From Gemmatimonas sp. (GTDB lineage Bacteria; Gemmatimonadota; Gemmatimonadetes; Longimicrobiales; Longimicrobiaceae): a stretch of 35,185 nt of DNA. The notes beneath the pieces are model-generated. The model was not told the origin of the DNA. It worked only from the letters and a program-made list of their open reading frames with translations, and did no database searches. Shown piece by piece: positions 1 through 15,288 of the stretch (the first letter of the stretch is position 1; each line of letters starts with the position of its first letter). Location of the stretch: NCBI GenBank assembly GCA_009380025.1, contig WHSP01000031.1:1-35185 (forward strand). The letters are read 5' to 3'. The position numbers and the translations under genes are program-made.

Positions 1-2044
1 GGCTGATGCGCCGGACTTCGACATCCGCGGGTCGTTCCCACGGCAGAGGAGGCTCCCGACCCTCATGGAACTTTCGCACAACCCGTGCCCAAACCGGTGC
101 GGCAAAACCACCTCCGGTAGCTCCCCCAGAAATTGCTGCAGGTTGATCGAGACCGATCCAGACCCCGGTCAGGATCTCAGGCGTGTAGCCGACGAACCAG
201 ACATCGGTGGCGTCGTTCGTCGTACCGGTCTTGCCTGCAGCGGGAATATCGTAGGAGAGGTTCCCGATGGCCGGATTCCGGACGACGTATCCGGTTCCGC
301 CGTCGACGACCTCGCGCAGCATATCCGTGATGATCCAGGAGAGCGACGGAGCGAAGGCCACCTCGGCACCCGGCGCCGGCTCCCAGATCAGCCCGCCCTC
401 TCCGTCCTCGACGCGATCGATCAAGCGTGGCTCTACACTGAGTCCCCCGTTGGCAAACGCGGCGTAGGCGGCGACGAGGTCGATCGGATAGACAGCGGCG
501 GCGCCGATGAAGACGGAGGGGTAGTCAGGGATGGGCGTTTCCAGTCCCGCACGGTGGGCGACGTTCTCGACCGCCGGGGCACCGATTTCCTGGCCGAGCC
601 GGATCGCGACCATGTTCTTGGAGCGCTTAAGCGCCTCGCGCAAGGACATGTCGCCTTCATAGTCATTGGAGTAGTTGCGGGGCACCCAGGTGTCGCCGTC
701 GGGCATTCGAACGAAGAGGGGCGAGTCGGGAAGGCTGTACATGGGTGAACGGCCCATCTCGAGGGCGGCCGCATAGACGAACGGCTTGAACGCCGAGCCG
801 GGCTGACGGAGCGCCTGGGTAGCGCGGTTGAACTGCGAATCCGTGAAATCACGACCTCCGACGAGGGCGAGTACGGCTCCTGTGTGGGGATCGAGAGACA
901 CCACCATGCCCTGCAGATATGGAGTGGTAACCACACCCTCTCCCTCGGACGACTCCTCCTGCTCCTTGAACTCCTCGTAGGTCGTGTGGGGATACCAGCC
1001 ATACGCCCCGCTCTCGACCTCCCGGAGTTGTTCTTCGAGGCTCGCTTCGGCCTCTGCCTGGAGTGCGGGATCCAGCGTCGTGTAGATGCGGAGGCCGCCG
1101 GTATAGAGGAGCTCACCGAAGCGGCCTTCAAGATCCCGACGGACCTGCTCGACGAAGTAGGGGGCGCGGACGACACCGGCAGGAGGAGCGAGGTTGAGCG
1201 GCGTCTCCTCTGCGGTCGTCGCCTCCTCGGCCGTAATGACTCGGGTCGCCGCCATGGCGGCGAGCACCACGTTCCGCCGGCCTTCGGCTACATCGGGACT
1301 CCGCCGCGGATTGTAGGCACTCGGGGCCTGCGGAAGGCCGGCCAGCGTCGCCGCCTCTTCGACGGACAGCTCGGTGGCCGATTTGTCGAAATAGGTACGC
1401 GAGGCCGCCTCGATGCCGTAGGCACCGGATCCGAAGAAGATATGGTTCAGATAGAGCTCGAGAATCTGTTCCTTCGTCAGCTGACGCTCCATCTCCAACG
1501 CGAGCCGCGCCTCGGCGATCTTCCGTCGGAACGTCATCTCCCCACGCGGGAGCTGTTCGGGGAAGAGGTTTCTCGCCAGCTGCATCGAGATGGTGCTCGC
1601 GCCGGTGGCGGCGAAGCCGTCGAGCAGGTTGTCGCGAATGGCGCCGACAATTCGGCGGACGTCCACGCCTTCATGCTCGTAGAACCGACGATCCTCGATC
1701 GCGACGAATGCGAGGGGGACGTACGGCGGTAGCTCCGACAAGGAGACGAGCTGACGACGCTCTCGATAGAAAAGGCCGAGTAGGCCACCCTCGGCGTCAT
1801 AGAGCTCGGTTGCCTGCTGGGGAGCAAACTGCTCGATCGCGGCGGCGGTCGGGCAGCCGCCGCCGCCGGCGCACGCGTTCGTCCAGGCGCCGACCGCCGC
1901 ACCCGCTCCGCCGAAGAACAGACCCACTGCGAGCAGTCCGACGATCCACCAGAACGGCACACCCCGCAGGAACTCCAGCACGCGTTCCATCGGTGTGGCG
2001 GGGTGTTCCCTCGCTGCTATCTCACTGGATCTGGGATCGTTCAC
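1..2044 (-). CDS. Class A penicillin-binding protein, PBP1A type (3' end outside window)
   Basis: Bifunctional peptidoglycan synthase: it polymerises lipid II and cross-links the stem peptides at the outer face of the cytoplasmic membrane. I translated the minus strand by hand. One transmembrane segment lies near residues 30-52. The GT51 domain follows, with EDRRFYEH (catalytic Glu about residue 117), STISMQLARN and LEMERQLTKEQILELYLN. The transpeptidase domain has SAFK (catalytic Ser about residue 417), SKN and KTGTT. The reading frame stays open to base 1, so the C-terminus is missing. I chose the GTG at 2044 because AGGAGAG sits a few bases upstream; the in-frame ATG at 1990 has no ribosome binding site. 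About 681 codons are visible, near the usual full size for the family. It is the first gene of its visible transcript, with a 378-base gap to the upstream acyl-CoA synthetase gene. Confidence 0.93.
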   Translation of the reverse strand, partial: MNDPRSSEIAAREHPATPMERVLEFLRGVPFWWIVGLLAVGLFFGGAGAAVGAWTNACAGGGGCPTAAAIEQFAPQQATELYDAEGGLLGLFYRERRQLVSLSELPPYVPLAFVAIEDRRFYEHEGVDVRRIVGAIRDNLLDGFAATGASTISMQLARNLFPEQLPRGEMTFRRKIAEARLALEMERQLTKEQILELYLNHIFFGSGAYGIEAASRTYFDKSATELSVEEAATLAGLPQAPSAYNPRRSPDVAEGRRNVVLAAMAATRVITAEEATTAEETPLNLAPPAGVVRAPYFVEQVRRDLEGRFGELLYTGGLRIYTTLDPALQAEAEASLEEQLREVESGAYGWYPHTTYEEFKEQEESSEGEGVVTTPYLQGMVVSLDPHTGAVLALVGGRDFTDSQFNRATQALRQPGSAFKPFVYAAALEMGRSPMYSLPDSPLFVRMPDGDTWVPRNYSNDYEGDMSLREALKRSKNMVAIRLGQEIGAPAVENVAHRAGLETPIPDYPSVFIGAAAVYPIDLVAAYAAFANGGLSVEPRLIDRVEDGEGGLIWEPAPGAEVAFAPSLSWIITDMLREVVDGGTGYVVRNPAIGNLSYDIPAAGKTGTTNDATDVWFVGYTPEILTGVWIGLDQPAAISGGATGGGFAAPVWARVVRKFHEGREPPLPWERPADVEVRRIS

Positions 2045-11570: not shown

Positions 11571-12287
11571 TCAGGCAGCGAGCTCGCGATCGCCGAGCTG
11601 CGCCACGTCGGCCGAGCGAAGGGTACCGCCTGCGGAAAGCACGTTTGCCACGCGGTTCGGGCGCGGCTGGTAACGCAGCGTCGTCGCTCGGATGCCGAGA
11701 AGGAGGTTGACGGTCACCAGGGTCCCGGGGACGCCCGAGCGATCGAGGAGGGCGCGGAGCTGGTCGGGAGCGGCGCGGTCGAAGTTTCGGGCTACGACGA
11801 CGAGGACATCTGGCATCTCTTCGACGGCTACCGCGAGCGCATCGCGCGTATGACCGGAGATCGCGAGGTTCACTTCAGGAAGGGCGAAGACCACACCCTC
11901 CCGCATACCGAGAGAGAAGCGGATGAACGGGTCGCTACCGATCTTATCGAGCCAACCGGTTCCGGTGATTTCTTCGACAATGCAACGGATCCCGGAGCGG
12001 AACTCCTCCGTTGCCGACCGGCCGCGGAACGAGAGCCGTCGCAGGTATTCGGCGAAATGGCGGTCCGGGTCGAAGTGGCGAAATGTTGGAAGGAGGCGTT
12101 CTGCGGTGGCTCGGTCGACCCAGCCGGTCGCCGCGAGGGCGTCCAGAAGGGACTGGCCGTGGAGCCCCGGCGCGGATTCCGCCACACGCTCGAGGGCGAA
12201 CTGCATCCTCGCCGCCTCGGACGCGAGCCGAAGATGCTCGGTCGGGGGGCTGACGAACAACTTGTTGAGATTTCCGAACCAGATCAT
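11571..12287 (-). CDS. Conserved-looking hypothetical protein, 238 residues
   Basis: No family was recognised. The protein is soluble, with no signal peptide or membrane segment. It starts MIWFGNLNKLFVSPPTEHLRLASEA. The middle contains a HFDPDRHFAEYLRRLSFRG segment. The C-terminal half alternates short hydrophobic strands with helices (VNLAISG, VLVVVAR, GTLVTVNLLLGI), suggesting an alpha/beta fold. Third-position GC bias looks coding. The start ATG 12287 has only a weak upstream purine stretch. It converges on gyrA with 39 bases between stops and diverges from the SnoaL-like lipoprotein gene. The shared upstream region contains four phased GTAC motifs. Confidence 0.7.
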   Translation of the reverse strand: MIWFGNLNKLFVSPPTEHLRLASEAARMQFALERVAESAPGLHGQSLLDALAATGWVDRATAERLLPTFRHFDPDRHFAEYLRRLSFRGRSATEEFRSGIRCIVEEITGTGWLDKIGSDPFIRFSLGMREGVVFALPEVNLAISGHTRDALAVAVEEMPDVLVVVARNFDRAAPDQLRALLDRSGVPGTLVTVNLLLGIRATTLRYQPRPNRVANVLSAGGTLRSADVAQLGDRELAA

Positions 12288-12301: not shown

Positions 12302-12344
12302 GTACACGTCCAAGGGTACTCCACAATGTACCCGCCTCCGGTAC
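12302..12344. promoter_or_regulatory. Four phased GTAC motifs in a divergent promoter region
   Basis: GTAC occurs at 12302, 12316, 12328 and 12341, at intervals of 14, 12 and 13 bases. Three of the four read GGTAC on one strand or the other. The cluster lies between the divergent 11571-12287 and 12398-13009 genes. It could be an operator array for a regulator that binds one face of the helix every 12-14 bases. This is inference; chance cannot be excluded. Confidence 0.3.
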
Positions 12345-12397
12345 CCGTCAAGGTCGAGCGAAAGCTGCGCCAACCGGCTGTGCGGCTTCTTGACACG

Positions 12398-13009
12398 ATG
12401 AGGCACCCGAACAATTTGATGCAGCCGACCGCTCCCATACCCGGACCCCACTTGCCACGTCTCTGGCCTTTCGCGGTGCTTCTCGCCATCGTCCAGGGCT
12501 CGTGTACGATCGAGCAGACGCCGCAAGAGTACATCGATCACCTGACGACCCCCGCGGCCGAGCTCGAAGTGTCGCGCGATGAGCTCATGGTGCGGCTCCT
12601 GTCGACGGCCCCGGCGCTGGAGCGGCGTGATCGTTTGGGCGTCTCCGGCGCTCTCGCCCCTGGTGCGGAGGTCTTCGTTCTGGGTCTTCGCCCTGGAGAG
12701 CAGCTGACCACCCCGCGAGCCGTGGTGGATACACTCGTCTCTCTTATTGGCGGATCGGACGTGGGCATCGGCGAGGCGGTCGTGACCGTCGCGCCGGGAA
12801 ACGATGTGGCCTGGTTCCGCGTCGCCTACGACCTCCCCGGCTCGAACGCGGACAGCTCGACGATCAACTTCAGCGGTGTCTTTGTACGAGCAGAGGGGGA
12901 TTGGCGCCTGACCCACGGCCACCTCTCGGGTGGTGTCAGTTCGTGGCCACCGGATCCGGCGCCGCCGCCGAATCCGGAACCGGCCGATACTCCGGCGGCA
13001 GACGGATAG
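12398..13009 (+). CDS. Putative lipoprotein with SnoaL/NTF2-like domain
   Basis: About 203 residues. A signal-like hydrophobic stretch (LWPFAVLLAIVQGSC) ends in a cysteine, so it may be a lipoprotein, although the residue at -3 is Gln rather than the usual Leu. The body ends in INFSGVFVRAEGDWRLTHGHLS, the pattern seen in SnoaL-like/NTF2-fold proteins where GxWrixhxHxS closes the sheet. The tail is proline-rich. The substrate or partner is unknown. Start candidates are ATG 12398 and ATG 12419, and the frame is open further upstream to 12326; none has a good ribosome binding site. The last 74 bases overlap the 3' end of the convergent GT51-like gene. Confidence 0.7.
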   Translation: MRHPNNLMQPTAPIPGPHLPRLWPFAVLLAIVQGSCTIEQTPQEYIDHLTTPAAELEVSRDELMVRLLSTAPALERRDRLGVSGALAPGAEVFVLGLRPGEQLTTPRAVVDTLVSLIGGSDVGIGEAVVTVAPGNDVAWFRVAYDLPGSNADSSTINFSGVFVRAEGDWRLTHGHLSGGVSSWPPDPAPPPNPEPADTPAADG

Positions 13010-13817
13010 TCACGGTGTCGTCGGGGGTCGGGAATCTCCGGGTCATAGGTCGATCGGCGAGACCGGGTTGGAAGGCGAGACGTTCGGCGACGGCCTCGTT
13101 GTAGCCCGCAGCGTCGATCTTGCCGGCCTCGAGCATCGCCCGCAGCACCTCGTTCCTGCGCACGCCCACGGCGCCAGGCCGGTCCGCGGGGTGTTCGATT
13201 CGGGGCTCGAGCAGCAGGCCCGCGAGGGTCGCTGCCTCGCCGAGCGTCAGGTCCGGAGCCGACTTCCCGAGATATTCCTCCGCGGCATAGTAGATGCCGT
13301 GGAGGGGCTCGCCGCGGATGCTCCCCAGGTGAACCCGGTTCAGGTAGAGCTCCAGGAGTTGCGACTTGGTGGCACGCTGCTCGAGGACCGGCGCCATCAC
13401 CAGAGCGCGCGCATCCGATATCACACCACCGTCGAGGCGATGGATCTGACGAACGAGCTCCCGCGGGATGGTCGTCTCCCGCTCATCTCTCGCCCGAAGC
13501 GTTCCCCCGTCCTCGTATTCCGGGTCGACCACGACCATGAAGGCATCCGGTAGGTAGGGCGGAAGGCTATCAAGGGCCACCCAATCGGGTCGGCGAATCG
13601 CGTCTCTGCGTTGTTCCAGAACACCTCCCCGCAACTGCCGATCGGCGGCCATGGCAAACCCGGCCACGATCCCGATGACCAGGAAGCCAACCGCGACGAG
13701 TGCAAGGGCCTGTCGCGAGCCCGGCGACCTCGTCCGCTGCCACTGGTCGCGTGTGAGACGGCCACCCCGACGTGGGGGCTTTCCTCCGAGCCTCTTCCCC
13801 CGCGGTACCCTCGCCAT
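12936..13817 (-). CDS. GT51-like protein lacking the catalytic glutamate (probable inactive transglycosylase)
   Basis: The 293-residue protein has a basic N-terminus, one membrane anchor (about 37-58) and a domain related to the GT51 peptidoglycan glycosyltransferases. The later motifs are clear: VLEQRATKSQLLELYLNRVHLG (about 144-165), then YYAAEEYLGK and LTLGEAATLAGLL. The first motif is ruined. Where active enzymes, including PBP1A in this window, read AIEDRRFYEH, this one reads VVVDPEYEDG, with Val97 in place of the catalytic Glu. Motif 2, normally GSTIxxQL, reads TTIPRELV. It therefore probably does not polymerise lipid II and may be a structural or regulatory paralogue; that is inference. 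The start is ATG 13817. The 3' end overlaps the convergent lipoprotein gene. Confidence 0.8.
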   Translation of the reverse strand: MARVPRGKRLGGKPPRRGGRLTRDQWQRTRSPGSRQALALVAVGFLVIGIVAGFAMAADRQLRGGVLEQRRDAIRRPDWVALDSLPPYLPDAFMVVVDPEYEDGGTLRARDERETTIPRELVRQIHRLDGGVISDARALVMAPVLEQRATKSQLLELYLNRVHLGSIRGEPLHGIYYAAEEYLGKSAPDLTLGEAATLAGLLLEPRIEHPADRPGAVGVRRNEVLRAMLEAGKIDAAGYNEAVAERLAFQPGLADRPMTRRFPTPDDTVTIRLPPEYRPVPDSAAAPDPVATN

Positions 13818-13962: not shown

Positions 13963-15288
13963 ATGTTGCAATCCGGTTTCCAACGGGTTACCGTGCTGCC
14001 GCGCAAGCCGAAATTCGATTGCGATTTAGCTGAGCTCATGGCCAACGTCGACACGACCTATATCCGGCGAGGGTTCGGCTTGACCAAACAGGTCGAGCCG
14101 CTGGTCCAGGCGGAGTACCACAGCCGACTCGTCGACCGGATTCGCGAGGCGGGCAATGAGCTCACCTTCGGCACGGGGGCCGGTGCCGTGACGATCCGAC
14201 TCGCGGACTCCTTCGGCTTCTGCTACGGCGTCGACCGCGCCGTCGACTACGCCTACCAGACACGCACCCAGTTTCCCGATCGCCGCCTCTTCCTCGTCGG
14301 CGAGATCATCCACAACCCGCATGTGAACGCGAGGCTCCAGGCGGTCGGGATCGAGTTCCTCCAGCCTGGCAGCACAGGATCGTTTGACTTCTCGGGGATC
14401 GAGGCCAACGATGTCGTGATCCTGCCTGCCTTCGGGGTAACCGTCGCGGCTTTCCATGCTCTCCGCGGGATCGGCTGTACCATCGTCGATACCACCTGCG
14501 GAAGCGTGCTGAACGTCTGGAAACGCGTGGATCAGTACGCCCGCGACGGCTACACGGCGCTAATTCATGGGAAGTATCATCACGAGGAGACGAAGGCAAC
14601 CGCCAGCCAGGTTTTTCGGCATCCGAACGGCCGATACCTCATCGTCCTGAACATGGACGAGGCTCGCTTGGTGACCGACTACATCGAGCGAGCTCCAAAC
14701 GCCCTCTCTCGCGACCAGTTCATCGACTTTTTCGCCGTTCGATCTTCGACCGGGTTCGAGCCGGATCGGGACCTCGCGCGCATCGGCTGCGCGAACCAGA
14801 CGACGATGCTGGCGGGTGAATCCCTCGCTATCGCGGCGAAGGTGGGACAGGCGCTGGAGCGTCGGTACAGGAGTTCGGAGGGCTTCGATCTCGCCGACCA
14901 CTTCCGCTCTTTCGATACGATCTGCTCGGCAACCCAGGAGCGGCAGGACGCGGTGATCGAAATGATGGAGGATGAGAAGGGACCACCAGACGTGATGGTG
15001 GTGATCGGCGGATACAACTCGTCGAACACGAATCATCTCGCCGTTATCTGCTCACGCTACACGGCCACCTACCATGTCGCTGACGCCGCGTGCATCAATG
15101 TGGAGCATGGAACGATCCGCTTCAAGCCCAACGGTACTCCCCTTGACGCATCCGAGGTCGAGGCCGAGGATTGGCTTCCGGGTGACGACCTGAGGGTGGG
15201 GCTCACGGCTGGCGCCTCAACACCGAACAACAAGATCGGTGAGGCGGTTGAGCGATTGTTGCGGACCAGGGGGATCTCGCTCGACTGA
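13963..15288 (+). CDS. ispH: 4-hydroxy-3-methylbut-2-enyl diphosphate reductase, long cyanobacterial/plant-like form
   Basis: Last enzyme of the MEP pathway, reducing HMBPP to IPP and DMAPP with a [4Fe-4S] cluster. Cluster cysteines are in GFCYGVDRAV (Cys87), DTTCGSV (Cys179) and DTICSATQERQ (Cys321). Substrate-binding residues appear in EIIHNPHV, HGKYHHEE, NQTTM and SSNTNHL. At 441 residues it is far longer than the E. coli type (about 315). Its N-terminal TTYIRRGFGL...EYHSRLVDRIREAG segment resembles the extension of cyanobacterial and plastid enzymes. The start ATG 13963 has no clear ribosome binding site; ATG 14038 would remove the first 25 residues but keep the conserved extension. It diverges from the GT51-like gene. 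No other MEP-pathway gene is in the window. Confidence 0.94.
   Translation: MLQSGFQRVTVLPRKPKFDCDLAELMANVDTTYIRRGFGLTKQVEPLVQAEYHSRLVDRIREAGNELTFGTGAGAVTIRLADSFGFCYGVDRAVDYAYQTRTQFPDRRLFLVGEIIHNPHVNARLQAVGIEFLQPGSTGSFDFSGIEANDVVILPAFGVTVAAFHALRGIGCTIVDTTCGSVLNVWKRVDQYARDGYTALIHGKYHHEETKATASQVFRHPNGRYLIVLNMDEARLVTDYIERAPNALSRDQFIDFFAVRSSTGFEPDRDLARIGCANQTTMLAGESLAIAAKVGQALERRYRSSEGFDLADHFRSFDTICSATQERQDAVIEMMEDEKGPPDVMVVIGGYNSSNTNHLAVICSRYTATYHVADAACINVEHGTIRFKPNGTPLDASEVEAEDWLPGDDLRVGLTAGASTPNNKIGEAVERLLRTRGISLD

Follow-up and report, generated by a model that had tools for sequence, protein, structure and literature searches.

GT51 domains are regarded both as enzymes and as drug targets; their fold and family are known. 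According to the accessible part of PMC6053601, the residues of motifs I-III, together with Arg148, lie in the ligand-binding pockets, the donor phosphate is contacted by Lys140 and Arg148, and the flap is the separator of the donor and acceptor sites. A conserved but catalytically dead GT51 subfamily, such as the one described here, is new as far as a search of the open literature reaches: no GT51 pseudoenzyme was found in titles or abstract starts of open-access articles, nor was the present gene found in titles or abstract starts of the literature on Longimicrobiaceae and Longimicrobium.

The analysed window is a stretch of 35,185 nucleotides (contig WHSP01000031.1) from a Gemmatimonas sp. 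with a genome of 5.0 Mb, belonging to the Longimicrobiaceae, whose members are soil bacteria. Its reverse strand contains, at 12936..13817, an unbroken reading frame with an ATG start, coding for the 293 aa protein here called pseudo-GT51; the first-pass annotation, which had described the gene as intact apart from its motifs, was right on this point. A basic N-terminal tail is followed by a single hydrophobic helix and by the GT51 domain. The tail, predicted to be cytoplasmic (residues 1-31, 13725..13817, base coordinates converted by hand), carries the family motif GK.LGGaPr.GRwt and has low pLDDT. The predicted membrane anchor (residues 32-60, 13638..13724) was assigned from sequence and model, and forms the beginning of a predicted helix spanning residues 33-73. 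Alignment places a degenerate motif I with a shortened flap at residues 96-117 (13467..13532), and degenerate motifs II and III at residues 118-141 (13395..13466), where Gln is replaced by Glu120, Lys by Asp135 and a second Glu by Ala138. The retained part of the head, defined by Pfam and alignment, covers residues 142-231 (13125..13394) and includes motif IV (LLELYLNR) and motif V (RRNEVL). A C-terminal tail, residues 251-279 (12981..13067), with consensus PG.dyaPMtRP.....vIRLpp, is conserved but modeled with low confidence (pLDDT about 41-62). All these features lie on the reverse strand. At least two intact GT51 enzymes are encoded by the same genome: a PBP1A within the window (2-2044, reverse strand) and another one on contig C444. 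The PBP1A is canonical, with its GT51 motifs intact, and is truncated by the contig start.

Transgly (PF00912) is the sole Pfam family matched by the protein, at 66.7 bits where 27 are required; the match is confined to profile positions 89-177 of 178, corresponding to the part containing motifs IV and V, and the 293 residues include no transpeptidase domain. The same family matches all 19 orthologues found (see below) at E 0.01 or better. Structural models were built on 19 sequences from one family: the AlphaFold model of pseudo-GT51 (pLDDT 77.0, pTM 0.66) aligns with E. coli PBP1b (3vma) over 199 residues (Z 20.0, rmsd 2.9) and with the A. aeolicus PGT over 160 (Z 19.8, rmsd 2.2), the former comparison assigning it to the GT51 fold. 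The MtgA equivalog model, TIGR02070, has its cut-off at 182.65 bits and gives the protein only 35.9.

The catalytic site was evaluated by aligning the 19 orthologues with 36 canonical GT51 rows and the A. aeolicus PGT. The patterns expected of an active enzyme are ED..F..H.G for motif I, G.STI..Q for motif II, RK..E for motif III, LE.YLN for motif IV and RR..VL for motif V. The canonical rows were drawn from 43 loci by a pattern requiring motif IV as well as the motif I Glu and the His after it: their conservation in 36 out of 36 rows at those columns is therefore by construction, while the other columns are unselected. The motif is also present in six of the seven excluded loci (L028 and L042 being on the same contig); the seventh is L124. 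Residues 91-100 of pseudo-GT51 read DAFMVVVDPE, and the ungapped alignment of motif I to the active PBP1A of the window, over LPPYLPDAFMVVVD / LPPYVPLAFVAIED, brings Val97 onto the column of the catalytic Glu, as the first-pass annotation had proposed. This column (E83 in A. aeolicus, E100 in S. aureus MGT) contains Glu in none of the 19 orthologues: 17 have Val, one Leu and one Gly. The loss of the motif I Glu in all 19 is far beyond chance. The possibility that this copy alone was mutated, among homologues with an intact Glu, thus fails, and the earlier suggestion of a stable pseudoenzyme, whose fold is under selection, agrees with a loss extending to the whole clade. A displaced catalytic Glu was also sought, and no conserved acidic substitute is present in the segment between motifs I and II of the 19 orthologues.

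The losses are not limited to this residue. The motif I His is absent from all orthologues, although the Asp is retained in 17 out of 19. In motif II, previously noted as degraded, the Ser116 column features Ser in one orthologue and the Gln121 column features Gln in none, Asp or Glu being found in its place, versus 36 of 36 canonical rows at both columns. The later motifs, said to be kept, are so for motifs IV and V, but not for motif III, whose degeneration had been missed: no orthologue has R136 or K137 (A. aeolicus numbering), and the second conserved Glu persists in 13 of the 19, the window copy, with Ala138, not being among them. The donor-site Arg is lost from all orthologues, with a gap in 16, while a Lys or Arg is retained in 15 of 19 at the position of SaMGT Lys140. 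Motif IV retains Glu and Asn in all orthologues (E156, N160) and Tyr in 18, and motif V reads RRNEVL in all 19 (R220-L225). Three of the invariant residues, Q124, R161 and E223, are specific to the clade. The distance from the motif I Asp to the motif II Gln position is 21-22 residues in the orthologues versus 36-60 in the 36 canonical rows, so that even the shortest of these rows exceeds them by 14-15 residues. Conservation, expressed as the mean fraction of the top residue, is lowest in the domain at residues 96-116 (0.44), and reaches 0.72 at residues 132-230 and 0.68 in the C-terminal tail (251-279). Given the roles assigned to these residues in the accessible part of PMC6053601, the losses in motifs I-III and in the donor site indicate that catalysis and most lipid-phosphate contacts are gone, and that the core of the head is left. 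As judged from alignment and predicted model, pseudo-GT51 is an anchored GT51 domain which has lost its catalytic Glu, most lipid-phosphate contacts and much of the flap, and has conserved the head, motifs IV-V and two tails.

A profile of the 19 proteins, searched against 394 genomes of the class, finds full-length members in 19 of the 21 Longimicrobiaceae genomes, all at E 1.1e-116 or better. None of the 373 class genomes outside the family contains a full-length orthologue, the best match there (E 3.3e-34) falling in an 819-aa frame. The gene is missing from two Longimicrobiaceae genomes: one, 61% complete, lacks ispH as well; in the other, 86% complete, the contig stops 119 bases short of ispH. 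When genome contigs were searched with the single protein, no relative was found; the best 80 matches of a profile search of genome contigs consist of six Gemmatimonadota loci, followed, at lower identity, by matches to the GT51 part from other phyla. The 19 orthologues form one clade in the tree (support 100/99). As to the parent lineage, the best tree points to MtgA-type enzymes (94/91), and origins from PBP1b-type (p-AU 0.27) or PBP1A-type (0.098) proteins are not rejected.

Three related ideas were discarded. A replacement of MtgA by pseudo-GT51 does not fit with the several Longimicrobiaceae genomes holding both, the MtgA-like frames (240-356 aa) being recognized by length and similarity. 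Further pseudoenzymes did not turn up among the seven short GT51 frames read from the order's other families (L034-L040), all of which carry the canonical ED..F..H. Decay of an ancestral GT51 gene at the ispH locus is opposed by the absence of any GT51 trace next to ispH in four genomes from outside the Longimicrobiaceae.

Reading frames are intact in 19 of 19 orthologues, and 38 alignment columns are invariant. For the whole gene, dN/dS ranges from 0.16 to 0.75 in nine pairs, and is below 1 in every pair, as estimated by simple Nei-Gojobori counting, the genes being GC-rich. In the seven pairs compared, it always exceeds the values of both ispH and the nearby 'MIWFG' gene, indicating that constraint on pseudo-GT51 is moderate.

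The gene lies in a conserved block with ispH, an NTF2-like (SnoaL) lipoprotein gene and a gene for a protein with the fold of the FokI cleavage domain; in the samples of the order, all members of the block except ispH are restricted to Longimicrobiaceae. The divergent neighbour, ispH (LytB family, 13963..15288, forward strand; PF02401, E 4.8e-65), is adjacent at 17 of 18 loci. Its LytB domain starts at residue 78 of 441, as in long forms which are found also outside the family. Only at L175 (G019:C143), of the 18 loci, is ispH not found beside pseudo-GT51 although the contig extends some 4 kb upstream; either a rearrangement or a misassembly may be involved. On the other side, a convergent gene (12326..13009, forward strand) encodes a putative lipoprotein with an NTF2-like domain (SnoaL_3, PF13474, E 8.3e-7), and shares 74 bases at its 3' end with the pseudo-GT51 gene. 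It is found in 18 of 80 genomes of the order, all Longimicrobiaceae, and at 17 of 18 other loci of the family it lies, on the opposite strand, between pseudo-GT51 and the MIWFG gene.

The MIWFG gene (11571..12287, reverse strand), coding for 238 aa, follows pseudo-GT51 on the same strand at 18 of 18 other Longimicrobiaceae loci; among 117 genomes of the order, it is present in 19, the same ones that contain pseudo-GT51. Its product is modeled with pLDDT 87.7, and the model matches the FokI cleavage domain with Z 17.0 (rmsd 2.4, 152 residues aligned). The Pfam family FokI_cleav_dom gives weak matches in five of 19 members (best E 0.019), and a profile sequence search against solved structures gave no match. 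The catalytic motif is not conserved: no invariant Asp, Glu or Lys is present at residues 112 to 140 of the alignment, which makes nuclease activity doubtful. From its sequence, the protein is possibly a second pseudoenzyme of the same block. The neighbours of pseudo-GT51 being convergent or divergent, no operon is available to name a pathway.

The reading we lean towards, by a little, is that pseudo-GT51 is a vertically inherited, Longimicrobiaceae-specific GT51 pseudoenzyme, serving active wall synthases as a scaffold in the membrane or as an allosteric partner. Its parts differ in strength: the residues missing from the alignment make the protein almost certainly non-catalytic, while a role as partner or regulator of wall synthesis has about an even chance, regulation of a partner PBP being our best guess. 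A dead enzyme copy often acts on its living relatives, and for this reason the most economical partners are the wall synthases active in the same membrane. Polymerisation of lipid II would have been lost, and the membrane-bound protein would act on class A PBPs, on monofunctional GT51 enzymes where present, or on the RodA/FtsW complex. Contact with the synthase partner would be made by the surface of the head, while the basic tail (GKxLGGaPrxGRWT) would bind a cytosolic factor and the C-terminal tail a periplasmic one, the neighbouring NTF2-like lipoprotein being a candidate for the latter. The invariance of Q124, R161 and E223, along with a C-terminal tail both conserved and predicted with low confidence, suggests binding surfaces. 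Several points speak against this reading: no operon names the pathway, constraint on the gene is moderate, and the conservation of the motif I Asp in 17 orthologues and of the second Glu in 13 would be odd, if active-site contacts were all irrelevant.

These same residues bear on two of the alternatives. Pseudo-GT51 might still act as a glycosyltransferase, either on a different substrate or through a catalytic residue that has been displaced, and the second Glu, as well as the invariant E156 and E223, could be called upon in its favour; yet the window copy lacks the second Glu, E156 belongs to motif IV and is present in active enzymes too, and the segment 96-116, where a replacement base would be expected, is the least conserved of the domain. 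We regard such an activity as highly improbable. The protein might, instead, use the old groove to bind lipid II, the growing chain or a molecule resembling moenomycin without catalysis, as a sensor or for sequestration. The Lys or Arg at the SaMGT Lys140 position, the motif I Asp and the ubiquitous Glu and Asn of motif IV would suit a binder, as would the adjoining, divergent ispH, which feeds polyprenyl carrier synthesis. However, the motif I His, motif II Gln, motif III Arg-Lys and donor-site Arg are gone from all 19 orthologues, the motif I-II segment falls 14-15 residues below the shortest canonical row, and the lost residues are those of the ligand pockets, as far as the accessible part of PMC6053601 tells. 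Lipid II sensing is hence possible but less likely. The binding to lipid II or moenomycin-like molecules put forward by the first-pass annotation is weakened, and is unlikely to take place in the canonical grooves; as a whole, a binding role appears rather improbable.

The two other alternatives concern the gene and its surroundings. The higher dN/dS than in the neighbours, in seven of seven pairs, and the disappearance of motifs I-III might be taken as signs of a relic, losing its function by drift; but frames intact in every orthologue, 38 invariant columns and a fixed position in nearly all Longimicrobiaceae leave very little room for decay. Pseudo-GT51 might also be a structural part of a family-specific envelope module, formed with the NTF2-like lipoprotein and the FokI-fold protein and unconnected to wall synthesis. 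All three genes are restricted to Longimicrobiaceae in the samples searched, and occur together at nearly all loci; the lipoprotein gene, however, lies between the other two on the opposite strand, so that no transcript is common to all three, and short-range gene order within one family can survive by descent alone. Such a module is unlikely, though not negligibly so. Doubtful is also a variant linked to wall synthesis, based for the lipoprotein on co-location only: a Longimicrobiaceae module of partly broken enzymes, where a dead GT51 spanning the membrane, an outer NTF2-like lipoprotein and an inner FokI-fold protein without a conserved nuclease motif would jointly control wall synthases, an arrangement not seen elsewhere.

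A whole family keeping the GT51 head without its chemistry would make the structural role of the domain separable from the catalytic one, and would serve as a natural experiment on what holds or switches active GT51 enzymes in the membrane. The case also calls for caution in poorly studied phyla, where a GT51 domain match should not be equated with wall-making activity, unless motif I is checked.

Among known proteins, the monofunctional GT51 enzymes MtgA/SgtB (TIGR02070) share with pseudo-GT51 a single N-terminal anchor and a lone GT51 domain, and MtgA-type enzymes are grouped with its clade in the best tree, with support (94/91) that is not strong; they differ by the presence of the catalytic Glu and of motifs II and III, and by the absence of the additional conserved C-terminal tail. 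Class A PBPs (PBP1A/PBP1b) have in common with it the GT51 fold and motifs IV and V, and the rows labelled in this analysis as PBP1b-type also feature the longer loop after motif IV; pseudo-GT51, in contrast, has neither a transpeptidase domain nor the catalytic Glu. A parallel is found in bacterial pseudoenzymes at large, for instance in the serine-threonine pseudokinases, where, according to the accessible part of PMC12599244, a different fold has likewise been kept, and conserved within a clade, after the loss of its catalytic residues.
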